A stretch of 41,858 bases of DNA from Bacillota bacterium (lineage in GTDB: Bacteria; Sysuimicrobiota; Sysuimicrobiia; Sysuimicrobiales; Segetimicrobiaceae), in NCBI GenBank assembly GCA_021324295.1, contig JAJPJJ010000105.1, forward strand, positions 1 to 41,858, written 5' to 3'. Of the stretch, positions 15,258-41,724 are shown piece by piece. Within the stretch, counting starts at the first letter, position 1. Each line of letters begins with the position of its first letter. The notes below the pieces were generated by a model. The model worked only from the letters and a program-made list of their open reading frames with translations. It had not been told where the DNA came from and made no database searches. The translations under genes and the position numbers were made by a program.

Positions 15258-17513
15258 ATGAACCTCGAACAGATCCTCGGCGCGTTTCGGACCCGGCCCC
15301 GGTTCGCCCCGCAGTTCACCGCGTGGCACACGATCCCGGCGCGACCGGCGCAGTGGGCGGCGTTCCCCCCGGAGATGGATCCCCGCCTCGCGCGGGCCCT
15401 CGAGCGGCGCGGCATCCGGCGGCTGTACACCCACCAGGCGCAGGCGTACGAGGCCGTCCGGCGGGGCGCGGACATCGCGGTCGTGACCCCGACGGCCTCC
15501 GGCAAGACCCTCTGTTACAACCTCCCCGTCCTCGACGCGATCCTTCGTGACGGCGGGTCCCGTGCCCTCTACCTGTTCCCGACGAAGGCGCTCGGCGCGG
15601 ATCAGGTCCTGGAGCTCCAGGGCCTGATCGATGCGCTCGGCGTCGAGATCGCGGCGTTCACCTACGACGGCGACACGCGCGGGGACGCACGGCGGACGAT
15701 CCGCGCGGCGGGCCACATCGTGGTCACCAACCCGGACATGCTGCACACCGCGATCCTGCCGCACCACACGAAGTGGCTGCGGCTGTTCGAGAATTTGCGG
15801 TACGTCGTCCTCGACGAGCTCCACCACTACCGGGGCGTGTTCGGCTCGCACGTCGCCAACGTGCTGCGGCGGCTGGCGCGCATCTGCCGGTTCTACGGCA
15901 CCCGCCCGCAGTTCATCTGCTGCTCGGCCACGATCGGCAACCCGCGGGAGCACGCCGAGCGGCTCACCGGCCGCACGATCACCGTGATCGACCGCAGCGG
16001 CGCCCCCTCCGGGGAGCGGGTGGTCGCGCTCTACAACCCCCCGGTGGTCAACCCGCAGCTCGGCATCCGCCGCGACGCCGTGCGCGAGGCGGTCGAGCTC
16101 AGCGCGGAGCTGCTCGCCGGGCGGATCCAGACGATCTTCTTCGCGCGGACACGGCTCGCCGCAGAGCTGCTCACGACGTACCTCGGGGAGCGCGCGCGAC
16201 GGTACCACCTCCCCCCCGGTGCGATCTGCGGATACCGGGCCGGGTACCTGCCCTCCGAGCGGCGGCGGATCGAAGCCGGGCTGCGCAGCGGGGCCGTGCG
16301 CGCGGTGGCGGCGACGAACGCGCTGGAGCTGGGCATCGATATCGGCGAGATGCAGGCGGCCGTGCTCGTCGGCTACCCGGGCACGATCGCCAGCACGTGG
16401 CAGCAGGCCGGCCGGGCCGGGCGCCGCGCCGGCCGCTCCCTGGCCATCCTCGTCGCGACGAGCGCGGCGCTCGACCAGTTCATCGTGACGCATCCGGAGT
16501 ACCTGTTCGCGCGCCCCGTCGAGGAGGCCCGGATCAACCCGGACAACCTGCTGATCCTCGCGAGCCACCTCCGGTGCGCCGCGTTCGAGCTGCCGCTGCG
16601 GGACGGGGAGACGTTTGGGGCCGTCCCGCAGCCGGAGATCCTCGCGTACCTGGAAGAGGCCGGCGTGCTGCACCACGAGGACGACGCGTGGCACTACATC
16701 GCCGACGCGTACCCGGCGGAGGAGGTGAGCCTCCGCAGCGCGAGCCAGGAGAACGTCGTCATCATCGACACGAGCTCAGCGCGGCCGCGCGTGGTCGGCG
16801 AGATCGACCTCGCGTCCGCGCCCGCGTTCGTCCACGACGACGCGATCTACCTGCACCTCGGCCAGCAGTACCACGTCGAGCGGCTCGACTGGGAGCAACG
16901 GAAGGCGTACGTCCGGCCGGTCGACGTGGACTACTACACGGACGCGCAGATCGCCGTCGACGTGCGCGTGCTCGCGGAGTTTGGCCGCAGCCCCGCCGCC
17001 GCGCACGGGGAGGTGGCGGTGACGTTCCGGCCGACGATCTTCAAGAAGCTGCGCCTCGCGACGCACGAGAACGTCGGGTGGGGGACGATCCACCTGCCGG
17101 AGACGACGCTGCACACGACCGCGGCGTGGTGGATGTTCCCGCGCGACCGGGCGCCCGCGCTCGACAACGACGCCCTCCAGGGGGCGCTCCTCGGGGTGTC
17201 GCACGCCCTGCACAACGTCGCGTCGCTGTACCTGATGAGCGACCCGAGGGACCTGGGCTCCACCGTCGAGGTGCGGTCGCCGCACACCGGGCAGCCGACC
17301 GTGACCTTGTTCGAGCAGGTGCCGGGCGGGGTCGGGCAGGCGGAGAGGCTGTTCGCGCTGCGAGGGGACCTCCTCGAGGCCGCGGCCCGCCTCGTCGAGG
17401 CCTGCGGGTGCGCGGAGGGGTGCCCGTCGTGCGTCGGGCCGGTGCTCGCGCTCGGCCCGGATGCCAAGCGGCGCGCGATCCACCTGCTGCGGGATGTGTG
17501 CGTCCCGGCCTGA
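15258..17513 (+). CDS. mrfA: MrfA-like superfamily 2 helicase with C-terminal zinc-cysteine domain (DUF1998)
   Basis: This 751-aa 3'-5' DNA helicase resembles B. subtilis MrfA (YprA). In that organism MrfA works with MrfB to repair mitomycin C damage independently of UvrABC. Motifs seen are Walker A PTASGKT with K83, the DEAH-like box DELHHY at D186, motif III CCSATIGN, TNALELGIDIGEM and the arginine-finger motif QQAGRAGRRAG. A C-terminal four-cysteine cluster (C716, C718, C722, C725 in CGCAEGCPSC) is the signature of the family. ATG 15258 has AAGGAG six bases upstream. The next gene encodes the MrfB exonuclease and overlaps by about 20 bp, which supports the assignment. Confidence 0.93.
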   Translation: MNLEQILGAFRTRPRFAPQFTAWHTIPARPAQWAAFPPEMDPRLARALERRGIRRLYTHQAQAYEAVRRGADIAVVTPTASGKTLCYNLPVLDAILRDGGSRALYLFPTKALGADQVLELQGLIDALGVEIAAFTYDGDTRGDARRTIRAAGHIVVTNPDMLHTAILPHHTKWLRLFENLRYVVLDELHHYRGVFGSHVANVLRRLARICRFYGTRPQFICCSATIGNPREHAERLTGRTITVIDRSGAPSGERVVALYNPPVVNPQLGIRRDAVREAVELSAELLAGRIQTIFFARTRLAAELLTTYLGERARRYHLPPGAICGYRAGYLPSERRRIEAGLRSGAVRAVAATNALELGIDIGEMQAAVLVGYPGTIASTWQQAGRAGRRAGRSLAILVATSAALDQFIVTHPEYLFARPVEEARINPDNLLILASHLRCAAFELPLRDGETFGAVPQPEILAYLEEAGVLHHEDDAWHYIADAYPAEEVSLRSASQENVVIIDTSSARPRVVGEIDLASAPAFVHDDAIYLHLGQQYHVERLDWEQRKAYVRPVDVDYYTDAQIAVDVRVLAEFGRSPAAAHGEVAVTFRPTIFKKLRLATHENVGWGTIHLPETTLHTTAAWWMFPRDRAPALDNDALQGALLGVSHALHNVASLYLMSDPRDLGSTVEVRSPHTGQPTVTLFEQVPGGVGQAERLFALRGDLLEAAARLVEACGCAEGCPSCVGPVLALGPDAKRRAIHLLRDVCVPA

Positions 17514-18831
17514 ACCGCCCGCCCCGGAGGCCCCCGATAGCCTCCGGGAGCGGCTGCGGCGCCTCGGCCTCGCCGACCCCGCGCGGTCTCGCGCGGACAC
17601 CCGGGCGGCCGGGGACGGGCACCTCGCGCGGCCCCACGTCGGCGTCCCCGGCCGCGGCAGCGGGGTCGAGAGGATCCGGGCCGAGTACGCGCTCGATCGC
17701 CGTCACGGCCGGTGCGTGCTCGGCGACGCGCTCGAGGCGATCGCCGCGCCTCCGGCCGGCGCCGGGGCCGCCCCGGGCGGACGCGTCCGCGGGCTCGACC
17801 TCGCGCGCACGGCGTACGTGGATATCGAGACCACTGGGCTCGCCGGCGGGACCGGCACGTACGCGTTCCTCATCGGGGTGGCGTACGTCGACGGCCAGGC
17901 GCTCGTGACCGAGCAGTTCCTCCTGCACCACCTGGGCGCGGAACGCCGGCTCCTGGCGTCCCTGCAGGAGTGCCTCGCGAGGGCCCGCCACCTCGTGACC
18001 TTCAACGGCCGCCGGTTCGACTGGCCGATCCTGGAAGCGCGGCTCGTGCTGGCGCGCGAGCGCCCCCTGCCCCTGGAGGATCACACGGACCTGATCCAGC
18101 CCGCGCGATGGCTCTGGCACCGCGTGCTCGGGACGCACCGGCTGAGCACGCTGGAGGCGGAGGTCCTGGGCGCGCGCCGCCCGAACGACGTCCCCGGGTG
18201 GCTGATCCCCGCGATCTACGTCGAGTACCTCCGGCGGGGAGACCGGGCGAGCCTGGACCCGGTGCTCGCGCACAACCGCGCCGACCTGCTGGCGATGGTG
18301 GCGCTGCACGGCGAGGTCGCGCGCATCCTCCGGGATCCGGACGCCGCGCGCGGGCCGCTCGACTGGGAAGGCGCGGGCGTCCTGCTCGCCCGCGAGGGAC
18401 GCCACCGGGAGGCGCTCGCCTGCCTCGACCGGGCCGCCGCGCTCGCCCCCGACCCCGACGCGCGCTGGCGGATCCTCCGGCGCGTCGCGCGCGCCTACCG
18501 TCTCCTCGGCGACGCCGACGGCGCGCGCGCCCGGTGGGAGCGCGAAGCCGCGGTCTGGATCGGGCCGGACCGCCTCCGGGTGCGGCTGCTCGAGGAGGTG
18601 GCCAAGGCGCGCGCGCGGCGGGGCGACGCGGACGGCGCGCGGCGCGCGGTCGAGGAAGCGCTCGGCCTCGCGCGGCGCCTCTGCGGTCCGGCCGCAAACG
18701 ACCCTCCCCCGGATCTCCGGCGGCTCACGGAGCGGCTCAGCGGGCGGTTGGCCCGGCTCGAGGGGAGGTGCCGCCTACCGATCCTGCCGCCCGGTGAGCG
18801 AGACCGGAAGGCGGCCCCGGGGCCGCAGTGA
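17494..18831 (+). CDS. mrfB: MrfB-like DEDDh-type exonuclease (YprB) with C-terminal TPR-like repeats
   Basis: This roughly 445-aa protein has an RNase H-fold 3'-5' exonuclease domain at about residues 85-275. Metal-binding acidic residues are in DIETTG (D110, E112), then FNGRRFDWPILEARL and HNRADLLAM (H260, D264). The rest, about 290-400, is helical with TPR-like units (GREGRHREALACLDRAAAL). In B. subtilis the homologous MrfB partners the helicase MrfA in mitomycin damage repair. The start is uncertain: ATG 17494 and ATG 17461 are both in frame and both overlap the end of mrfA. The 3' end overlaps the convergent nagZ gene by 57 bp. Confidence 0.9.
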   Translation: MCASRPEPPAPEAPDSLRERLRRLGLADPARSRADTRAAGDGHLARPHVGVPGRGSGVERIRAEYALDRRHGRCVLGDALEAIAAPPAGAGAAPGGRVRGLDLARTAYVDIETTGLAGGTGTYAFLIGVAYVDGQALVTEQFLLHHLGAERRLLASLQECLARARHLVTFNGRRFDWPILEARLVLARERPLPLEDHTDLIQPARWLWHRVLGTHRLSTLEAEVLGARRPNDVPGWLIPAIYVEYLRRGDRASLDPVLAHNRADLLAMVALHGEVARILRDPDAARGPLDWEGAGVLLAREGRHREALACLDRAAALAPDPDARWRILRRVARAYRLLGDADGARARWEREAAVWIGPDRLRVRLLEEVAKARARRGDADGARRAVEEALGLARRLCGPAANDPPPDLRRLTERLSGRLARLEGRCRLPILPPGERDRKAAPGPQ

Positions 18832-30182: not shown

Positions 30183-30563
30183 CGAAGTCGCGTCCCCTCC
30201 GTCTCGATGCCCGCCGTCACCGGGATGCCCCCGCCGGGGGGATGCCGGACGGCGGCTGCTGCCACCACGATCCCATCATAGCGTCTCCGCCAGGGGCCTG
30301 TCGTGTGCGCCCCTCCCTCGGCCGCACGACACTGCGTCCCAGCTCCTGCACACGCCGCAGGACGGGCCGCTTCTCGTGATCTAGGTCTAGCGTTGCTCAA
30401 CCCTGGGCAAGAGTGCTACTGGCTCGAGGGGAGGCGAAAACGAGGGATCAGGCCGCGCCGTTCGACATCCGTTGAATCGAGTCCACGCGAACGTCATCTC
30501 GTGGGCTGCGTGTGGCTTTCCACGGACCGCGTGCTCGATCATCTCGTGACGCGGAGACGCCAA
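30183..30563. other. 381-bp boundary region between chromosomal backbone and cas operon
   Basis: This stretch lies between the divergent phosphofructokinase and cas3 genes. The left part is as GC-rich as the backbone; from about 30380 the composition falls to that of the cas genes. It holds the pfp Shine-Dalgarno site and an imperfect hairpin near 30300-30330 (GTCGT...ACGAC arms). The cas3 frame stays open through it, but no conserved protein sequence is seen before ATG 30564. I found no convincing attachment site or promoter. Confidence 0.45.
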
Positions 30564-33296
30564 ATGAACCGCCTGGATGCATGGTTCGAGTCGGCGTTCC
30601 AAGCCCTGACCGGACATCGACCCCTGCGCTGGCAGCACAGGCTCTTCCGATTGCTGAGCTCCGGCCAAGTGCCGCCGTTCTGCGGTTTGCCGACAGGGCT
30701 CGGCAAGACGGCGGTGATCCCGATCTGGCTCGCTGCCGTGGCAGCCCGCGCCCGAGAGAAGCCGGTGGGTCTGCCACGGCGCCTCGCCTACGTGGTCAAC
30801 AGGCGCACGGTTGTCGATCAGGCGACGGCAGTCGTGGAGCAGATGCGAGCGCGTCTGCGCACACCCGAGGACCCCAAGTGGGCGCGGCACAGCGCCCCGC
30901 TTCGAGAGTTGGTCGATCGACTCAGGGACCTTGCTGCATTCCCGGGCGAGCCACTGGCGGTCAGCACGCTCCGTGGTGAACTGGCCGACAACGAGGAGTG
31001 GAAGATCGATCCTGCACGAGCGGCGGTGATCATCGGCACGATCGATATGATCGGCAGCAAGCTACTCTTCAGCGGCTACGGCGACGGGCGATACCGTCGC
31101 GCGCACCATGCCGGACTCATCGGCCAGGACGTGTTGGTCGTCCACGACGAGGCGCACCTCACGCCGGCGTTCAGCAGCCTCCTGAGCGCCGTGGGCGACG
31201 CGCAAAGGCGGGACCGGGAACCGCGCCCGGTCCACGTGATGGAACTATCGGCCACGCTGCCCCACGGTGCCACCGCCGCCGTGCAGCTCGGGGCCGAGGA
31301 CGAGCGCGACGAATTCGTGGCCACACGTCTGGACGCGAAGAAGCGCCTGCGCCTGCACCGTTGCGATGGCAACAGGAAGGATCTCGCAGCGAAGCTGGCG
31401 GATCTGGCGTTCGAGCACGAGCCGTCCCGGGCCAGGATACTGATCTATGTTCGGTCTCCCGAGGACGCCCAGCGCGTGGAGAGCCAGCTCACCAGGAAAC
31501 TCGGGGCACGGGCAGACGAGCGGATAGCGCTGCTCACCGGTACTATCCGCAGCCATGAGCGTGATGCGCTCGTCCGTTCGAACGTCGTGTATCGCGCGTT
31601 CCTCGACCCCGGCACTGACATCGAGAACACGAAATACCTTGTTAGCACCTCGGCGGGCGAGGTGGGGATCGATCTTGACGCGGACCACCTCGTCTGCGAC
31701 CTCACCACGCTGGACGCAATGGTTCAGCGGCTCGGCCGGGTGAACCGCCGCGGGGGGAGCGGCCGGGTCGCCCGGGTTGACGTGGTGCTACCGGACGATG
31801 CCGCTCCGGTGCGCGGCCCTATGGACCTGGACCACGCGATGCGGGCCACCCGTCAAATCTTGGAGCACTGGGGCGCCGGGTCGAACGCCGGAGCCGACGT
31901 CTGTCTCCGTGCGCTGCAGGCGCGACTGGCGCTGTTGAAGGCGGAAGAGACGCAACGCGCCTTCGCGCCTAGACCCGAGGTACCGCCGCACACGGATATC
32001 CTCCTCGACACCTGGTCGCTGACCAGCATCGCGGCGGCCATGCCAGGTCGGCCGGAGGTCGACGCCTACCTGCACGGGCTGACCGCCGATCCGCCCGAAA
32101 CCTACGTCGTGTGGCGCAAGGAAGTTGCTGCGCTGAGCCGGGACGAGCTGGACGATGACACGGTGCGCGCCTGGTTCCGCGCTTGCCGCATCGAGACACG
32201 CGAGCGCCTGCGCGACCAGACCGCTCGGGTGAAAGACACGCTCGACACCCTTCTCGGAGCTCACCGCAAGGGCGACGCGACGAAGGACTTCCCGGTCATC
32301 TTGCTCGACGAACGGGGCAATGCGGAGCGACGGCGATTGTCGGACGTTGTGCGCCGAGAGTTCTCGCTCGGCTACCGGACGGTCGTGCTGCCGGTCGAAG
32401 CCGGGGGCTTGAACAACCGGGGCATGCTCGACGGTAGATGGACCGAGCCCGCCCGTGATGTCGCCGACCATGATCTCCCAGGCGCTGCCGCCAGCGACCA
32501 GCGGCGCGAGCGTTGGCTGTACTCCGTTGGAGCTGAGGGCGAGGGATACCGGCGTCTGCTTACCGGGCAGCCGGGGGACCCGCAGGCGGACGGGCTGCAC
32601 GAGGTCACGCGGGTGGCTCTACAGAGCCGCCCCGAAGGCACTGACGACGAAGGCGAGGCCCTGTACCTGCTGCTGATGGTATCATCCAAGCGAGCGGCGG
32701 AGACCGACCCGGAATCGACCCCAGTCAGGCAGGCGTTGAGCGATCATACGCGAGCGGTGGTGCACTGCGTGGGTTGCATCGCGGACGCGCTTGGGCTCGA
32801 CGATCGGTTGAAGGAGACCTTGGTCCTGGCCGCGGAACGCCACGACAGCGGCAAGGCTCAACCGCTGTGGCAGTGGTACGCGTGTAACGCGAACCCGGCA
32901 GTGCCTTTGGCGAAGTCGCCGAAGTACCGTCACTGGCGAGCGCTCGGCGGCTACCGCCACGAGTTCGGCTCGCTGCTCGATGTTCTGACGGACCGCACGC
33001 TCATCGGTCGGGACGATGCCGACCTGATCCTGCACCTCATCGCCGCGCATCATGGGTGGGCCCGCCCGCACTTCGAGCCGCGGGCCTTCGCACCGCCGCC
33101 GGCCAGTACAGCGCAGAACTATGCGGCGGCCGCCGGAGTGCTGCGCCGGTTCGGCCGGCTCCAGCGCCGGTTTGGCCGGTGGGGACTGGCCTGGCTGGAG
33201 TCGCTGCTTCGCTGCGCCGACATCATGGCGTCGGAGCACGTTGCTGAGGCGGCCACCGGGTCCCGACCAACGGTGGACGCCGGCATGTTGGCATGA
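30564..33296 (+). CDS. cas3: Cas3 helicase-nuclease, type I-G (helicase followed by HD domain)
   Basis: This 910-aa protein unwinds and degrades target DNA recruited by Cascade. The superfamily 2 helicase comes first: Walker A GLPTGLGKT (residues 41-49), DEAH box at 195-198, motif III ELSATLP, STSAGEVGIDLD and motif VI QRLGRVNRRG. The HD nuclease follows at the C-terminus, with ERHDSGK (H760, D761), H799 in RHEFGSL, HH at 829-830 and a final Asp (D886 in CADIMAS). HD after the helicase is the reverse of most Cas3 proteins and is characteristic of the GSU0051-type Cas3 of subtype I-G (I-U). The start is MNRLDAWFESAF with GGAG eight bases upstream. The last bases overlap csb3 (ATGA). Confidence 0.96.
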   Translation: MNRLDAWFESAFQALTGHRPLRWQHRLFRLLSSGQVPPFCGLPTGLGKTAVIPIWLAAVAARAREKPVGLPRRLAYVVNRRTVVDQATAVVEQMRARLRTPEDPKWARHSAPLRELVDRLRDLAAFPGEPLAVSTLRGELADNEEWKIDPARAAVIIGTIDMIGSKLLFSGYGDGRYRRAHHAGLIGQDVLVVHDEAHLTPAFSSLLSAVGDAQRRDREPRPVHVMELSATLPHGATAAVQLGAEDERDEFVATRLDAKKRLRLHRCDGNRKDLAAKLADLAFEHEPSRARILIYVRSPEDAQRVESQLTRKLGARADERIALLTGTIRSHERDALVRSNVVYRAFLDPGTDIENTKYLVSTSAGEVGIDLDADHLVCDLTTLDAMVQRLGRVNRRGGSGRVARVDVVLPDDAAPVRGPMDLDHAMRATRQILEHWGAGSNAGADVCLRALQARLALLKAEETQRAFAPRPEVPPHTDILLDTWSLTSIAAAMPGRPEVDAYLHGLTADPPETYVVWRKEVAALSRDELDDDTVRAWFRACRIETRERLRDQTARVKDTLDTLLGAHRKGDATKDFPVILLDERGNAERRRLSDVVRREFSLGYRTVVLPVEAGGLNNRGMLDGRWTEPARDVADHDLPGAAASDQRRERWLYSVGAEGEGYRRLLTGQPGDPQADGLHEVTRVALQSRPEGTDDEGEALYLLLMVSSKRAAETDPESTPVRQALSDHTRAVVHCVGCIADALGLDDRLKETLVLAAERHDSGKAQPLWQWYACNANPAVPLAKSPKYRHWRALGGYRHEFGSLLDVLTDRTLIGRDDADLILHLIAAHHGWARPHFEPRAFAPPPASTAQNYAAAAGVLRRFGRLQRRFGRWGLAWLESLLRCADIMASEHVAEAATGSRPTVDAGMLA

Positions 33297-34207
33297 CGTG
33301 TCCCAGGCCGAGCTTCTCGGTGGCAGTCGACGTCGCGAACCCTGGCCAATTCTTCGCATGTTGCGGCCTGCTGGAGCTGGCGCACCGCCTGTGGCCGGGA
33401 GCAGAAGGGTGGTTCAGTCGGGACGGCTCCACCTTTTTCGTGGCAACTGGTGACGCGCACGGGACGCTGGCGCGGTTGGTCGACGAGTTGAGCAAGTGCA
33501 AGATCACGGGTCTCAATCAGGAGCAGCGAAGGGAGCGAGACATCCTCGAGGAACGAAGGAGGCAGCTTAAGAAGGCCGGTCAGAGGCTGTCCCGAGACGA
33601 CGAGGCGCGGCGTAACGAACTGGGTGATCTGGCGCGCACGGGCCCCGTCCAAGTCGAGGCTCCCTTCGGAATTCTGCTGGACTGGTGGCAGACAAGCGAG
33701 GACGACCAGAGTGCGCCGAAGACCTGGGCCGGCAGACAGGAGATTCACAAGATAGCGACAGCGGCTCAAGAGGCTCTCGTCGATCGCGCCTCGAGCGGTC
33801 TCTTCGATTACGCCTGTGTGCTTCGGTTGCCTCACGACTACAGGAAGGGGAGGGCGGACCACAAAAAGGCGGTCGAGCCATTCTACTTTGACGCGCGTCG
33901 ATTCGCCCATCCCCTGGATGCCGGATTCTCGCTGGACGTCCAGGATGCGGAGACCGTGGCGCACCCGGCGGTGGAGCTGCTGTGTCTCATTGCATTGCAG
34001 CGTTTTCGTCCGTCTGCTGTCAAGGGTCAGAAATGGCTCTTTGAGTACACAATGTGGTCCGGTCCCCTGCCGGCTGCCGTGGCGCCGGCGGTAGTGTGCG
34101 GTGTTGTTGCAGGGGATCGCCGGTACCGTTTCCCGCTGGTCTTCCGGGACGATCAGAAACGGTATAAGGCTTTCGGTCTGGCAACCCCAATAGGAGGTGG
34201 TCAATGA
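33293..34207 (+). CDS. csb3: Type I-G Cascade subunit Csb3 (Cas8g, GSU0052 family)
   Basis: This 304-aa protein opens with the family hallmark (residues 12-41) VDVANPGQFFACCGLLELA, then RLWPGAEGWF. A charged, probably coiled helical insert lies at about 70-115 (QRRERDILEERRRQLKKAGQ). Blocks FGILLDWW, AQEALVDR and AHPAVELLCLIALQRFRP follow. In type I-G it takes the place of the large Cas8 subunit, which in other type I systems recognises the PAM and recruits Cas3. Its start overlaps the cas3 stop by 4 bp and its stop overlaps the csb1 start by 4 bp, so the three are translationally coupled. Confidence 0.9.
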   Translation: MTCPRPSFSVAVDVANPGQFFACCGLLELAHRLWPGAEGWFSRDGSTFFVATGDAHGTLARLVDELSKCKITGLNQEQRRERDILEERRRQLKKAGQRLSRDDEARRNELGDLARTGPVQVEAPFGILLDWWQTSEDDQSAPKTWAGRQEIHKIATAAQEALVDRASSGLFDYACVLRLPHDYRKGRADHKKAVEPFYFDARRFAHPLDAGFSLDVQDAETVAHPAVELLCLIALQRFRPSAVKGQKWLFEYTMWSGPLPAAVAPAVVCGVVAGDRRYRFPLVFRDDQKRYKAFGLATPIGGGQ

Positions 34208-35391
34208 CCGGCATCGATGTGAGCCTCGGTCGTTTCGACGAGTGGTTGAGCGACGATAGCCCATATGCGGCGCTCGTCCTACGCCAGTGGCTCGTGCCCG
34301 TCGAGGGAAGGGACGCTGTAGTCTTCCCACCCACATACGCGAGGCCCGACGGAGTTCACGACGAAGACTGGACCGGTTATAACATCGATCGGTTGGACGA
34401 CGGGACACGCGTATGCCTCATCGACAGCGTGGGTTCACAAGCCAACCGGATGGAGCCGATCTTCAAGCGCGAGAGGTACAAGCACCTTGTGCCGCAAGTT
34501 ACGGTCAATGCCAGAGTGGTAACCAACGGCCAAGCCCGAGACGTCTCGATTCACCTGCTGGATGCGGGCCACCGTGCGGCGGACGCGATTGTGCGCTTTT
34601 CGACACTTGGCCCTCGGTTTCACGAGGCTTTCCGCGCGTTTCAGCAGGACGGGAGTGCAGAGAGGCTGGCCCGCATCGCGCCGACGTCCATCGTATTCGG
34701 TTGCTGGGATTCTCGGGCAACGCAGGCCAAGCTTCCCCGGGTCGTCCGCTCCGTCATTCGGGCCTTCGACATTGAATTGCTCCATCGGTCGGCCCAATAT
34801 AGCACCATCGCTGGGGAAATCCTCGAAGCCGGCGAGGCGGAAGTCACCACAAAGGGACCCAAGGCCGAGCTGGGTCTCGCCCACGTACCCGCCGTCATGA
34901 CGCACGGCGGCATCAAGGTGAAGGGTGAGATCCGTCGCGACGCCTTGCTAAACCTCGTTGCCCTGCGTGCCCTCGGCAGCGACTCCCATGAGCCGCAGGA
35001 TGACACTTCGCTTCGGCGGTATATCCTGGGCCTTGCTCTCGTCGCGTTTACTGCCCCTCAGGAGACGTTCTTGCGCGAGGGATGCCAGCTCGTGCCGCTC
35101 GCGGACAGAGACAGCGAGTGGACGCTCGTGAGTCACGATGGTGGTCGCTACGACATGAAAGTAACCCACGAGGATGCTCTCGCCTTCGCGACGGCGGCTG
35201 CAAAGGCGTTCCGCGTAGACCCGGGCGAAGCAGCCGACTTCGATGCAGACCTCGCACGCAAGGTCCTGGCGCTGAACGAGGCCAAGCGAAAGGCCTTGCT
35301 GAGGCAGGGCCCGGTCACGCGGGAAGCGGTAGTGCGCATGTCGACCGCAAGACCGCGGGGGGGCAGGGGCAACAGCGCGTCGACTGGATGA
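34204..35391 (+). CDS. csb1: Type I-G Cascade backbone protein Csb1 (Cas7g, GSU0053 family)
   Basis: This 395-aa RAMP-fold protein polymerises along the crRNA. Family features are FPPTYARPD, CLIDSVGSQANRMEPIF, RVVTNGQARDVSIHLLDAGH, FGCWDSRATQAKLPRVVRSV and, toward the C-terminus, MTHGGIKVKGEIRRDALLNL followed by VALRAL. ATG 34204 has AGGAGGTGG directly upstream inside csb3, and the genes overlap by 4 bp. csb2 starts 12 bp after its stop. It is the third gene of the interference operon cas3-csb3-csb1-csb2. Confidence 0.94.
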   Translation: MTGIDVSLGRFDEWLSDDSPYAALVLRQWLVPVEGRDAVVFPPTYARPDGVHDEDWTGYNIDRLDDGTRVCLIDSVGSQANRMEPIFKRERYKHLVPQVTVNARVVTNGQARDVSIHLLDAGHRAADAIVRFSTLGPRFHEAFRAFQQDGSAERLARIAPTSIVFGCWDSRATQAKLPRVVRSVIRAFDIELLHRSAQYSTIAGEILEAGEAEVTTKGPKAELGLAHVPAVMTHGGIKVKGEIRRDALLNLVALRALGSDSHEPQDDTSLRRYILGLALVAFTAPQETFLREGCQLVPLADRDSEWTLVSHDGGRYDMKVTHEDALAFATAAAKAFRVDPGEAADFDADLARKVLALNEAKRKALLRQGPVTREAVVRMSTARPRGGRGNSASTG

Positions 35392-35403: not shown

Positions 35404-36873
35404 ATGGCCCGCCATCTGTGCATATCCGTCAGCCTATTGGATCGGCGCTTCCACGGCAGGCGTGATGCGAATCAGCCCGAGTGGCCGCCATCGCCGATGC
35501 GCCTGTTCCAGGCGCTGCTGGCCGGCGCGCGAACAGGATGCCGCAACCGCCACTGGTCCCAGGCGAAGGCAGAGGCGTTCCGCTGGCTCGAACGTCAAGC
35601 CCCTCCGATCATAGTCGCTCCGCCGGCTCGCGTGGCTGCCACCGGCCACACTTTCTATGTACCGAACAACGACGCCGACAGGCGCTTCGACCGCCAGGAG
35701 CGGTTGACGAGCAAACCCGCGCGCCCGCACCATCTCCACGACGGCAACACAGTACACTACCTCTGGGCGATCCGAGAGGACCAATCGCCGGACGCCGAGC
35801 AACACGCAGAGATGCTCTGCTGCGAGGCCCGCCACATCCTTGCACTCGGGTGGGGCATCGACCAGGTGGTCGGCAACGGCCGGATCCTCACAGACGAGGA
35901 GGCGGCGGCGCTCACCGGATACCGCTGGCGCGTCTGGGCCGGTAACGGAGACCTTGAGAGGCGGTGGCGGGTCCCCATCGATGGTTCCCTCGACGATCTT
36001 GAGCGTGTCCACCGTTCGTTCGTGGAGCGGGCCGCACGTGAGCCATACCGCCCGCAGAGCCGAATCCGCAGGTACGGCACGGTAACCTACTCAAGGGACA
36101 CGACACTGCCTCCTCGATCGTTCGCCGTGTTCGAGGTACCCGACGGTGTGGCGTTCCGGCACGTGGACGCGGCCAGAGTCGCCGTCATGCTCCGTTCTCT
36201 CGCGTGCCGACCGGGACACCGCGACGATTTCCGAGAACAGTTTGGCGAGGACCCGGAGGTGTACCTGGCGGGGCACGTCACGGTGGGGAATCCCACGCCC
36301 CCGCGCTTCTCTTATTTGCCGCTTCCCACAATCGGACACCAACACGCCGACGGCATGATTCGCCGGCTGCTGATCGCCGAACCGTACGGTGGCGATGGAA
36401 CCCACGCGCGTTGGGCCGAACGCCGGTTGCGAGGACAGACACTGCACGACGACGAAGGGAACGAGCGCGGTATTCTGCTCGAACCGTGGCGGCCCAGTTC
36501 GCGTGCAATGATCGCCCGGTACGTTGGTGAGCACGCCGTCTGGACCACCGTGACACCCGTCGTCCTCCCCGGGTATGATGATTTCCGCAGGGTCAGGACC
36601 CGACGCGATGCGCGCCCCACCAAGGCCGAGCGGCTGCTGTTTAAGGCCTTGCAGCAGGCGGGTATTCCTCTCACTGCGGTTTCTGACGCGACACTGCGCA
36701 AGGCCCCGTTCTGGCCCGGCGCCCAGCATCCGCGCCAGTATCACCGGCCGAATTACTTGCAGGATTATGCCGTTTGGCATGTCCGCCTCGTGTTTCGCGA
36801 GGCCATCCACGGCCCGCTGGCGGTCGGCGCGGGTCGCCACTGTGGGCTCGGCTTGTTCGCGGGAGCGGAGTGA
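35404..36873 (+). CDS. csb2: Type I-G Csb2 (Cas5-Cas6 fusion, GSU0054 family)
   Basis: This 489-aa protein combines the Cas5 cap of Cascade with the Cas6 processing nuclease in subtype I-G. The N-terminal Cas5-like part opens CISVSLLDRRFHGRRDAN with EWPPSPMRLFQALLAG. The middle has PPRFSYLPLPTIGHQHADGM, where the conserved His may serve in RNA cleavage. The C-terminal glycine-rich loop GAGRHCGLGLFAG is typical of Cas6/RAMP proteins. It ends the interference operon; a 291-bp gap without a gene separates it from the MNT gene. Confidence 0.93.
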   Translation: MARHLCISVSLLDRRFHGRRDANQPEWPPSPMRLFQALLAGARTGCRNRHWSQAKAEAFRWLERQAPPIIVAPPARVAATGHTFYVPNNDADRRFDRQERLTSKPARPHHLHDGNTVHYLWAIREDQSPDAEQHAEMLCCEARHILALGWGIDQVVGNGRILTDEEAAALTGYRWRVWAGNGDLERRWRVPIDGSLDDLERVHRSFVERAAREPYRPQSRIRRYGTVTYSRDTTLPPRSFAVFEVPDGVAFRHVDAARVAVMLRSLACRPGHRDDFREQFGEDPEVYLAGHVTVGNPTPPRFSYLPLPTIGHQHADGMIRRLLIAEPYGGDGTHARWAERRLRGQTLHDDEGNERGILLEPWRPSSRAMIARYVGEHAVWTTVTPVVLPGYDDFRRVRTRRDARPTKAERLLFKALQQAGIPLTAVSDATLRKAPFWPGAQHPRQYHRPNYLQDYAVWHVRLVFREAIHGPLAVGAGRHCGLGLFAGAE

Positions 36874-37164: not shown

Positions 37165-37521
37165 ATGGGGACTGACTGCGAACGGAATCTAGAAAGTGAG
37201 CTCCTGCGCCGCGAGCCTGCGTTGGCCGAAGTCGTCCGTCGGCTGATTGATGCGTACCAGCCGGAACGGATCTACCTGTTCGGGTCAAGGGCACGCGGCG
37301 ATGCGGGACCCGACAGCGATTACGACCTGCTACTCATCGTTCCGGACGGCGCGCCGCCCGAGCGCAAGCACAGCAAGCTAGCCTACCAGGTGCTCTGGGG
37401 AACCAGGGCGGCCGCCGACGTGATCATTTGGGAGAAGTCAGCCTTCGAGCGAAGGGCCCGCGTGGTCTCCTCGCTCCCCGCCACCGTCCTGCGCGAGGGT
37501 AAAGTTCTCTATGCGGCATGA
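37165..37521 (+). CDS. mntA: MNT-type minimal nucleotidyltransferase (antitoxin-like)
   Basis: This 118-aa protein has the complete GSX10DXD nucleotidyltransferase motif: G40 S41 in LFGSRARGDAGPDSDYDLLL, with catalytic D52 and D54. MNT antitoxins of HEPN/MNT modules inactivate the HEPN partner by adding AMP residues to it. Here the partner gene overlaps by 11 bp (ATGCGGCATGA), the usual arrangement. ATG 37165 has AGGA nine bases upstream and lies just after a 10-bp inverted repeat. It is unusual in being inside a CRISPR-cas locus, between the interference genes and cas4-cas1. Confidence 0.9.
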   Translation: MGTDCERNLESELLRREPALAEVVRRLIDAYQPERIYLFGSRARGDAGPDSDYDLLLIVPDGAPPERKHSKLAYQVLWGTRAAADVIIWEKSAFERRARVVSSLPATVLREGKVLYAA

Positions 37522-37924
37522 CCCCGAGCTGGTAGCGGAGACGCGTGCATGGTTGGTCAAGGCGCACCGAGATCTCGCCAGCGGGAACGTGGTGCTCGCC
37601 GCAGAAGCGTCCCTCACGGGAGACGCCACCTTTCACGCGCAGCAGGCAGCAGAGAAAGCGATGAAGGGGTTCTTGACGTGGCACGGTCAGGTGTTCCGGA
37701 AGACGCACAATCTGATCGAGCTGGGTGAGGCCTGCGCCCGGCTGGACCCGAGCCTTGAGCTGCTCCTGCGCCAGGCCGCGGGTCTGACGGACTATTCCTG
37801 GAAATTCCGCTATCCGGGCGAGCCTGAGGAGCCGAGTGACAGAGAGGCTCGTGACGCGTTGGAAACGGCGCGAGCGGTCTACGAAGCGGTCCTCGCGCGC
37901 CTGCCCGCTGAAGTCCGCCCATGA
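37511..37924 (+). CDS. hepT: HEPN domain protein (toxin-like partner of MNT)
   Basis: This 137-aa four-helix HEPN protein shows the PF05168 pattern FHAQQAAEKAMKGFLTWHG followed by FRKTHNLIELGEAC. HEPN toxins with an RX4-6H motif cut RNA. Here the later helices lack a canonical RX4-6H; only RAWLVKAH in helix 1 fits the spacing, probably by chance. It may thus be of the HI0074-like, non-nuclease type, or act by another route. Its start overlaps the MNT gene by 11 bp, and its stop overlaps the cas4-cas1 start by 4 bp (ATGA), so its translation is tied to the adaptation genes. Confidence 0.88.
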   Translation: MRHDPELVAETRAWLVKAHRDLASGNVVLAAEASLTGDATFHAQQAAEKAMKGFLTWHGQVFRKTHNLIELGEACARLDPSLELLLRQAAGLTDYSWKFRYPGEPEEPSDREARDALETARAVYEAVLARLPAEVRP

Positions 37925-39573
37925 TGTCACCGACCGACGCCTCCGACCTCATCCCTGCTCGAATGGTGAACGAGTTCGTCTACTGTCCCCGCCTGTTCTA
38001 TCTTGAGTGGGTCCAAGGTGACTTTGCGCACAGCGCTGACACCCTCGAGGGGGCTGCCGTCCACCGACGGGTGGATCGGGAGCAGGGCCCTCTCCCGGAC
38101 GCAGGCGAGCTGGAGGCGGAGGATCGGGTCGCGGCCCGTGGTGTCCTGCTGTCGGCTCCCAAACTCGGATTGATCGCGCGTATCGATCTCTTGGAAGGCG
38201 GGGAAGGGCGGGTACGCCCCGTGGACTACAAGAAGGGCGCGCCAGGACGCGAGGGGCCGTGGGAGCCGGACCGCGTGCAACTCTGCGTCCAGGGGTTGAT
38301 TCTGCGCGAAAACGGCTACCGGTGCGATGAAGGAGTCGTATACTACGCGACCAGCCGGCAGCGGTTTACGGTACCGTTCGATCCGGGGCTCATCCGCCGC
38401 ACGCTCGACACGGTTCAGGAAATCCGGCACGCGATCGCTTCCCCTCTCCCGCCGCCTCCGCTTGTAGATAGCCCCAAGTGTCCCCGGTGCAGTCTCGTCG
38501 GGATCTGCCTCCCCGACGAGGTGAACCTGCTCCGGGGAGCAGGCACGGACGAGGTGCGGCGACTTGTCCCAGCCCGCGACGACGCGGCCCCCTTGTACGT
38601 AATGAGCCAGGGCGCGACAGTCGGCAAGACCGGGGAACGCCTTGTCGTCCGGCGCCCCGGCGAGGACCCGTCATTTGCCCGGCTCATCGACATCTCTGGC
38701 CTGTCGGTGTTCGGTAACGTGCAGATCAGTGCCCAGGCGCTACGGGCTCTGAGCACCAGGGGAATCCCGATCCTCCACTTCACGTACGGCGGATGGCTCG
38801 CAGCGGTGACGACGGGGCCAGCGCAGCGCAATGTTGTGCTCAGAATGGCCCAGTACAAGATGGCCAGCCGCGCGAGAACCGCACTTCTCGTCTCGCGAGC
38901 CATTGTATTTGGCAAGATCCGGAATCAGCGGACGATCCTACGGCGCAACCACCGCGACCGGCCCGAGGGTGCCATCGGCGAACTCGGCCGCTTGGCCAAG
39001 GCCGCGTATGCGGCACAGTCGCAGGAGCGCCTTTTGGGAATCGAGGGGACGGCCGCCCGCATCTACTTCACGCTGTTCGGAGGGATGCTCAGGCCCTCCA
39101 TGTCGTTCGACTTCACGGAACGGAACAGGCGGCCCCCCACAGATCCGGTGAACGCGCTCCTGTCGTTCGCCTACGCGCTGCTCACCAAGGATTGCACAGC
39201 CGCGTGTGTCGCGGCTGGCCTCGACCCGTACATAGGATGTTTCCACCAGCTTCGGTACGGACGACCGTCGCTGGCGCTGGACCTAGCGGAGGAGTTCCGC
39301 CCATTGATCGCCGACTCGGTTGTGCTGACGGTGGTGAACACTGGCATGGTCACCGACAGCGATTTCATACACCGCGGGCCAGCATGCGCACTAAGAGAGG
39401 AAGCGCGTCGACGTCTGATCGAGGCGTACGAGGCCCGCATGGAGACGTTGATCCGTCACCCGCTCTTTGGCTACTCGATCAGCTACCGGCGGGTGCTGGA
39501 AGTCCAAGCCAGGCTCCTGGCCCGTGTCATCGCCGGTGAGTTGCGTGAATATCGCCCGTTGGCAACACGATGA
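37921..39573 (+). CDS. cas4-cas1: Cas4-Cas1 fusion, type I-G adaptation integrase
   Basis: This 550-aa protein joins Cas4 (about residues 1-205) to Cas1 (about 215-550). Cas4 has the four iron-sulfur cysteines C22, C187, C190 and C196 (FVYCPRLF and KCPRCSLVGICLPDE). Its RecB-type nuclease motif is VDYKKG (D102, K104), followed by QLCVQG. Cas4 trims prespacers and selects for the PAM. Cas1 has its metal-binding residues E375 (GIEGTAARIYF), H442 (CFHQLRYGRP) and D454 in LALDLAEEFRP, and it integrates spacers with Cas2. This fusion is a hallmark of subtype I-G. It overlaps HEPN upstream and cas2 downstream by 4 bp each. Confidence 0.96.
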   Translation: MMSPTDASDLIPARMVNEFVYCPRLFYLEWVQGDFAHSADTLEGAAVHRRVDREQGPLPDAGELEAEDRVAARGVLLSAPKLGLIARIDLLEGGEGRVRPVDYKKGAPGREGPWEPDRVQLCVQGLILRENGYRCDEGVVYYATSRQRFTVPFDPGLIRRTLDTVQEIRHAIASPLPPPPLVDSPKCPRCSLVGICLPDEVNLLRGAGTDEVRRLVPARDDAAPLYVMSQGATVGKTGERLVVRRPGEDPSFARLIDISGLSVFGNVQISAQALRALSTRGIPILHFTYGGWLAAVTTGPAQRNVVLRMAQYKMASRARTALLVSRAIVFGKIRNQRTILRRNHRDRPEGAIGELGRLAKAAYAAQSQERLLGIEGTAARIYFTLFGGMLRPSMSFDFTERNRRPPTDPVNALLSFAYALLTKDCTAACVAAGLDPYIGCFHQLRYGRPSLALDLAEEFRPLIADSVVLTVVNTGMVTDSDFIHRGPACALREEARRRLIEAYEARMETLIRHPLFGYSISYRRVLEVQARLLARVIAGELREYRPLATR

Positions 39574-39872
39574 AGACGACGCTGCGCCGCCGCTTCGTTG
39601 TGTGTTATGATATTCGGGAGCCGCGACGTCTTCGGAAGACACATGAGACGATGCTCGGGTACGGAGACCCGATGCAGTACTCGGTCTTCATTTGCGACCT
39701 CTCACGAAGCGAGCTTTTGGTGATGGAAGACGCCCTACGCAATGTCGTCGACTCGGCGGTGGACGCGGTGCACATTGTAGACCTCGGCCCAGCCGCAGGC
39801 ATCGCACGGGGCCGGATCCGAGTTTTATGTGGTTCCACGATGCCCGCACCTACACGGCATCAGGTTCTGTAG
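39570..39872 (+). CDS. cas2: Cas2
   Basis: This 100-aa protein of ferredoxin fold forms the dimer bridging Cas1 in the spacer integrase. The first strand carries the conserved aspartate in FVVCYDIREPRRL (D14), followed by LGYGDPMQYSVFICDLS, the typical second helix and strand. DAVHIVDLGPAAG and RIRVLCG complete the fold. Its ATG overlaps the cas4-cas1 stop (ATGA). It is the last gene before the array. Confidence 0.95.
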   Translation: MKTTLRRRFVVCYDIREPRRLRKTHETMLGYGDPMQYSVFICDLSRSELLVMEDALRNVVDSAVDAVHIVDLGPAAGIARGRIRVLCGSTMPAPTRHQVL

Positions 39873-40097
39873 AGTAGATCCGCACCTTGACAACCACATA
39901 CTTGGCAATGGTCACCTGCGAGCGGTAGGGGTGGTGCTCCACCCCCAGGCGGTCGCTCGCGCGGCTGCGAGCCAAGAGAGGCATGGCCTAGCGCATGGGA
40001 AAGGCAGCCCCGATGGCATCGCAGGCTGGATGCGGAGGGGAGGTGCTCGCAGTGAGCCCGTGGAATGCTTGATATACAAGGCCCAGAGGGGCGCGCG
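39873..40097 (+). promoter_or_regulatory. Putative CRISPR leader
   Basis: These 225 bp between cas2 and the first repeat hold no gene. A TTGACA hexamer lies at 39887-39892 without a good -10 partner. A perfect hairpin GGGGTGG-TGCT-CCACCCC is at 39928-39945, and a TATACA at 40073-40078 lies about 20 bp before the first repeat. Position beside cas2 and the repeat orientation favour this side as the leader, with spacer 1 the newest. Confidence 0.6.
39928..39945. terminator. Hairpin after cas2
   Basis: A perfect 7-bp stem (GGGGTGG/CCACCCC) with loop TGCT sits 55 bp after the cas2 stop. No U-run follows. It may end the cas transcript or be a leader structural element. Confidence 0.35.
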
Positions 40098-41724
40098 GTT
40101 TCCACGACCGCAAGGTCGTGGCTCCATTGAAGCGATGAAGAAGACGAGGGTGTCCCGCAACGCCGCGAGTTTCCACGACCGCAAGGTCGTGGCTCCATTG
40201 AAGCGTCAGCCAGTCCGCCGTCTGGTCCGTCGGTTGCGAGTTTCCACGACCGCAAGGTCGTGGCTCCATTGAAGCATCTGCACCCGTCCCCCGGACGTCA
40301 AGTTGATCCCGAGTTTCCACGACCGCAAGGTCGTGGCTCCATTGAAGCTCCTTGCCGGGATGCGCTCGCCCTGGGCGATGAGCGCGTTTCCACGACCGCA
40401 AGGTCGTGGCTCCATTGAAGCAGACTGAGCAGCCGCCATCGGATGAAGAAGACGAGGTTTCCACGACCGCAAGGTCGTGGCTCCATTGAAGCTAGTTAAT
40501 TTGATCGACCAGTTCGGGCCGAGTTTCCAGGTTTCCACGACCGCAAGGTCGTGGCTCCATTGAAGCCGGACCATCCCCGGCGTCCGCCCCGACAAGCGTC
40601 GGTTTCCACGACCGCAAGGTCGTGGCTCCATTGAAGCCCTCCCCAGCCGTGGGGATGGCCGTTGCGGTTGAAACGTTTCCACGACCGCAAGGTCGTGGCT
40701 CCATTGAAGCTTCGGGGGCCTGTTCGGCGCCCTGGGCGGCGCCGGGTTTCCACGACCGCAAGGTCGTGGCTCCATTGAAGCACGAGACGAGAGGCCGCGG
40801 CAGCAGGGGGGGATTGGTTGTTTCCACGACCGCAAGGTCGTGGCTCCATTGAAGCCGTATCAAGGCTTTCCGGCGGAGTCTGTCATACATAGTTTCCACG
40901 ACCGCAAGGTCGTGGCTCCATTGAAGCGCAGTGATCATGAATCCCCTGCACGCGGATATCAAGTTTCCACGACCGCAAGGTCGTGGCTCCATTGAAGCCG
41001 TGTGCATTGAGTCCCACCATCGGAGAGTGGTGAGGCGGTTTCCACGACCGCAAGGTCGTGGCTCCATTGAAGCAGGAGAATTGCCAGCCGCGGGTCAGAA
41101 TAGGCATGAAGTTTCCACGACCGCAAGGTCGTGGCTCCATTGAAGCCCACGTTCATCAAGCCGAGGCGCGACGGTTCTTCGCGTTTCCACGACCGCAAGG
41201 TCGTGGCTCCATTGAAGCTTCGACGGCTCGGGCCAGCCGCGCCCCGGGGTCGTGTTTCCACGACCGCAAGGTCGTGGCTCCATTGAAGCTGGATGGTCTC
41301 CGGGGTCGTCTTCTTGTTTGTGAACAGTTTCCACGACCGCAAGGTCGTGGCTCCATTGAAGCGGTAGCCCTGCGCTTCGAGATTCTCGATCATTTCGCGG
41401 TTTCCACGACCGCAAGGTCGTGGCTCCATTGAAGCACCTTGGAGCAACGCGTGCGCTTCGGCATCGTCTGGTTTCCACGACCGCAAGGTCGTGGCTCCAT
41501 TGAAGCCCGGCCGCCGCGCCTGCCGCTGAGCTCGCCGAGGACGTTTCCACGACCGCAAGGTCGTGGCTCCATTGAAGCTTCGTCTTCAAGGACGAGATGG
41601 ACCGGGGCCGACTGGTTTCCACGACCGCAAGGTCGTGGCTCCATTGAAGCTGCTGGCCTTGGGCCTGCACGCCCGGACCGTTCACGGCGTTTCCACGACC
41701 GCAAGGTCGTGGCTCCATTGAAGC
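40098..41724 (+). CRISPR. CRISPR array, 23 repeats and 22 spacers (type I-G)
   Basis: I count 23 copies of a 36-bp repeat, all apparently identical, the first at 40098-40133 and the last at 41689-41724. Each begins GTTTCCACGACC, has the stem CCACGACC-GCAA-GGTCGTGG and ends CTCCATTGAAGC. The 22 spacers are 35-39 bp. The GCAA (GNRA) loop and the ATTGAAGC 3' end, which resembles the ATTGAAAS ends of many type I repeats, suggest transcription on the plus strand with a 5' handle from CTCCATTGAAGC. Open frames through the array on both strands are artefacts of the repeat. Spacers 1 (40134-40168) and 5 (40422-40456) overlap by 15 nt. Spacer 6 ends in GTTTCCAG, copying the first bases of the next repeat. 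Confidence 0.99.

Follow-up and report, generated by a model that had tools for sequence, protein, structure and literature searches.

The type I-G CRISPR array at the right end of the window, that is, of the whole 41,858-nucleotide stretch of DNA analysed, raises the question of whether its spacers 1 and 5 were captured from overlapping protospacers. The array (40098-41724, + strand) consists of 23 identical 36-nt repeats (GTTTCCACGACCGCAAGGTCGTGGCTCCATTGAAGC) and 22 spacers of 35-39 nt. Spacer 1 (40134-40168, +), the leader-proximal and newest one, and spacer 5 (40422-40456, +) are both 35 nt long, and the 15-mer GATGAAGAAGACGAG forms the exact 5' start of the former (40134-40148, +) and the exact 3' end of the latter (40442-40456, +). 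A previous sequence-only reading had claimed that the end of spacer 5 equals the start of spacer 1 over 15 nt and that the two join into 55 bp; the match is exact, and joining the spacers at GATGAAGAAGACGAG gives 55 nt. The 15-mer was absent outside the array, both in the window and in the 4.02-Mb host genome. When all 231 spacer pairs were compared on both strands, the next longest string common to any pair was 11 nt. Spacer 17 has 10 nt in reverse complement in common with spacers 1 and 5; it was rejected as a third overlapping spacer, since 10 nt falls within the 10-11 nt background.

The cas genes beside the array are all located on the + strand and constitute a type I-G set. They encode Cas3g (30303-33296, TIGR02621), Csb3, the subunit annotated as Cas8g (33293-34207, TIGR04106), Csb1/Cas7g (34204-35391, TIGR02570), the Csb2 Cas5-Cas6 fusion (35404-36873, TIGR02165), a Cas4/Cas1 fusion (37921-39573; NF049935, 763.6 bits versus a cut-off of 560) and Cas2 (39570-39872; TIGR01573, 31.3 versus a cut-off of 24.5). 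The matches of the first four all exceed the curated cut-offs, and the Cas4/Cas1 fusion and Cas2 stand next to the array, as befits an I-G locus. Type I-G systems (formerly I-U), such as those of Geobacter sulfurreducens, Methanosarcina barkeri and Bifidobacterium, are alike in having Cas3g, Csb1, Csb2, Csb3, the Cas4/1 fusion and Cas2, as well as a 36-nt repeat and spacers of 35 nt and longer. The leader lies between cas2 and the array (39873-40097, +) and carries the blocks GCACYTTGACAA and GGTGCTCGCA, which are common to the I-G leaders of two same-family genomes; the GCGC before the first repeat is also common to the I-G loci of these two genomes. In the relative G008, the sole degenerate repeat is found at the array end far from cas. 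Since the leader adjoins cas2 and the degenerate repeat of G008 is at the opposite end, spacer 1 is taken as the newest spacer and its 5' side as the PAM side (for the M. barkeri I-G Cas4/1, see PMC10504553). Between csb2 and the Cas4/1 fusion gene (37165-37924, +), the cas locus also contains a gene for an NTP_transf_2 (MntA-like) nucleotidyltransferase and a HEPN-domain gene, which overlap, are co-directional and form a type VII toxin-antitoxin-like pair.

How often such a match should arise by chance was estimated in several ways. The probability of any shared 15-mer among 22 spacers was approximately 5e-4 under an iid model, 6e-4 under a Markov model and 8e-3 when real window chunks were used, the highest value being derived from real GC-rich coding DNA. 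For suffix-prefix overlaps of 15 nt or more on the same strand, the expectation was far lower: 2e-6 per array (iid), and approximately 4e-5 per array, with an upper figure of approximately 5e-5, when the window's own rate of 15-mer coincidence was applied. A true overlap demands that the 3' edge of one spacer match the 5' edge of the other, and this is where the 15 nt are found; the suffix-prefix identity thus goes beyond chance (2e-6 to 5e-5). In the arrays of four genomes from the order to which the host belongs (G005, G008, G034 and G019), spacer pairs share at most 11 nt; the G019 array is not I-G as judged by its repeat. A crude random-uptake model with one element of 10-100 kb gave 0.002-0.5 expected overlapping pairs per array, which exceeds the chance expectation by orders of magnitude, although the odds of overlap versus chance are estimates resting on assumptions of this kind rather than measured values. 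A real overlap is by far the likelier reading, even when a penalty is paid for the odd PAM considered below.

The main rival explanation is coincidence, namely, that the two spacers were captured from unrelated genes which use the same codons for an acidic DEEDE stretch or for a hydrophobic LVFFI stretch on the other strand. GATGAAGAAGACGAG can be translated as Asp-Glu-Glu-Asp-Glu, and its other strand as Leu-Val-Phe-Phe-Ile. In 386 genomes (roughly 1 Gb), it occurred 21 times outside the array versus 5 times for its reversed control, and is thus about four times commoner. Moreover, the spanning 20-mer ATCGGATGAAGAAGACGAGG had three exact matches, in cellular genomes, among 85,000 genomes, all with non-matching flanks; two of the three were read by ORF, one in an rpoH-like gene (L033) and one in an unrelated gene (L034), and both encode SDEEDE. 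A 19-mer of spacer 1 recurred in two homologous IMG/VR contigs, within a membrane-protein gene reading TLVFFI there, and the remainder of the spacer mismatched. The triplet TCG before the spacer 1 protospacer, which is no known I-G PAM, would also be in keeping with coincidence. However, a common codon run should seldom fall exactly at both spacer edges, and since the suffix-prefix expectation is at most approximately 5e-5, we regard coincidence as improbable. A rearrangement within the array, by which spacer 1 would combine the end of spacer 5 with degraded repeat sequence, could explain why the shared string directly adjoins the repeat in spacer 5. Nevertheless, all 23 repeats are identical, and a rearrangement is very improbable. 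A repeat-derived tail of spacer 1 was rejected as well, as its remaining 20 nt fitted the repeat no better than shuffles did (23% and 13.5% of which scored as high).

The comparison of the 55-bp joined sequence with phage and plasmid data, which the sequence-only reading had proposed, was run, but neither the 55-mer nor any of the spacers gave more than chance-level matches by BLAST. IMG/VR was searched with the joined 20-mer, three wobble-tolerant patterns (one for each codon phase) and the unique parts of both spacers, and no target was obtained; nor was there a full-length match to either spacer in the 386 genomes, including the host's own. The joined sequence was thus absent from the phages, plasmids, IMG/VR and genome contigs searched. 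Several partial matches were examined and rejected as protospacers: three IMG/VR contigs matching a 17-mer of spacer 1 without extension, the two homologous contigs with the 19-mer, in which 24 of the 35 spacer bases match, and the GC-rich partial matches that made up the results of the all-spacer searches. Neither phages nor 43 genomes of the order contained protospacers for the I-G arrays of G005, G008 and G034. The I-G array of G005 is divided between contigs 127 (L055) and 85 (L071), and the single extra 100% match, in contig 85, was this same array continuing across the contig break, not a protospacer. Separate full-length matches of the two spacers to unrelated targets, which would point to coincidence, were not seen, but neither was a full-length match of any kind. 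Since no source element was found, we infer the 55-mer, and with it a contiguous 55-bp target, from the two spacers.

In the joined sequence, protospacer 1 is preceded by GCCATCG, so the flanking triplet, which can be read for spacer 1 only, is TCG as had been claimed. The accompanying argument that TCG is not the TTN of some I-G systems is correct as to the triplet but weaker than it appeared, because other PAMs have been reported for Bifidobacterium I-G. TTN is the PAM given for one I-G system (PMC9638904), while the PAM of Bifidobacterium I-G is TAT (PMC12915315) or probably TAC (PMC7284854); TTN is therefore not universal in type I-G. Given a genuine overlap and an invariant target, the flank here would differ from the TTN of Geobacter, the TAT/TAC of Bifidobacterium and the TTC of M. 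barkeri (read from the GAA strand). Since there is no TT anywhere in the joined 55 bp, small slippage cannot yield TTN for this sequence. A consensus PAM accompanies 90-93% of the new spacers in type I-F, and only approximately 0.5% lack one within 3 nt (PMC5059440), and if I-G acts like I-F, TCG needs explaining. It may be a lineage-specific PAM; the target may have been a variant in which one C-to-T change gives TTG; spacer 1 may have been inserted in flipped orientation, which would place the PAM beyond the known sequence; or the shared 15 nt may be a coincidence. That both spacers came from one unchanged target and that TCG is the real PAM of this I-G lineage is unlikely in our judgement. 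If it were true, I-G PAMs would be more diverse than TTN/TAT/TAC, with only the leading T as their common feature.

Taken together, the best explanation, to which we assign a probability of approximately 85%, is that spacers 5 and 1 represent two separate uptakes from one element or close relatives, at sites lying 20 nt from each other on the same strand. This reading rests on what was observed: the overlap is exact and unique, it falls at the edges of both spacers, the array is oriented with spacer 1 at the leader end, and the cas genes are an I-G set. Counted against it are the lack of a source element in the searches, the triplet TCG instead of TTN, and the common codon run that forms the core of the match. 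On two separate occasions, the Cas4/1-Cas2 machinery of the I-G system would have captured a spacer at nearly the same position on one strand, either of a single invading element or of two close relatives having that stretch in common. The start points of the two protospacers would be separated by 20 nt, with 15 nt in common; spacer 5 would have been inserted earlier, followed by spacers 4, 3 and 2, and spacer 1 last, and we infer that the host was re-exposed to the element. The claim of repeated attack by one invader is supported in part: overlapping protospacers on the same strand are much the best reading, but a single invader is not established, as two relatives fit equally well.

The second uptake may have been aided by the crRNA of spacer 5, and primed adaptation had indeed been put forward. 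In this case of primed or interference-driven adaptation, the crRNA would have bound a mutated or persisting target and led to the uptake of spacer 1 beside it. In type I-F, primed or targeted uptake clusters around the targeted protospacer (PMC5059440), and the present pair is similar in that the newer spacer would map beside the target of the older one. Furthermore, by sequence inspection, replacing C by T at position 19 of the spacer 5 target is enough to turn TCG into TTG, which is a TTN PAM. However, there is here one pair, with no strand or distance pattern and no further clustered spacers: no other spacer of the array overlaps or demonstrably shares the target, and three unrelated spacers stand between spacers 5 and 1. 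The same outcome would be obtained if a small or abundant element were sampled again at random, and the literature examined holds no record of priming in I-G. We consider priming possible, but a doubtful addition to the reading of two separate uptakes.

Overlapping acquisitions are a rare but known kind of event, here in an ordinary I-G system. They have been seen directly on one element in Sulfolobus solfataricus, in which separate newly inserted spacers came from overlapping positions and overlapped sufficiently to assemble into contigs of 80-150 bp (Erdmann and Garrett 2012, PMC3468723), as spacers 5 and 1 assemble into a small contig. In Sulfolobus, however, there were many spacers, a known element and an invariant CCN PAM, whereas we observed one pair in a natural array with no known element and no recognised PAM; according to the same authors, natural Sulfolobus arrays seldom contain overlapping spacers. 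Within the array itself, the pair would record that one spot was sampled repeatedly, and an overlapping pair discloses the protospacer flank without the genome of the invader. If the 55-bp target were found, it would show which PAM this uncharacterised I-G lineage uses and allow the idea of a primed second uptake to be tested.

Some irregular spacers were also seen in the related I-G arrays. In G005 (L055), the adjacent spacers 5 and 6 share ACCGCCGTCAA in inverted orientation, with 16 of 19 bases matching when the string is extended by eye, possibly because a repeated or related sequence was sampled twice, once from each strand. The last repeat base in this array changes from G on the leader side to C on the far side. 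Spacer 7 of the G008 array (L056) is 51 nt long and contains a 13-bp tandem duplication (CTTGCCACCCCGG twice), without which it would have a normal length of 38 nt. Elsewhere in the window (15258-18831, +), two successive genes overlap; the first encodes a DEAD helicase with MrfA Zn-binding and HRQ1 winged-helix domains and the second an RNase H-like/TPR protein, and we take this pair to resemble the MrfA-MrfB repair pair.
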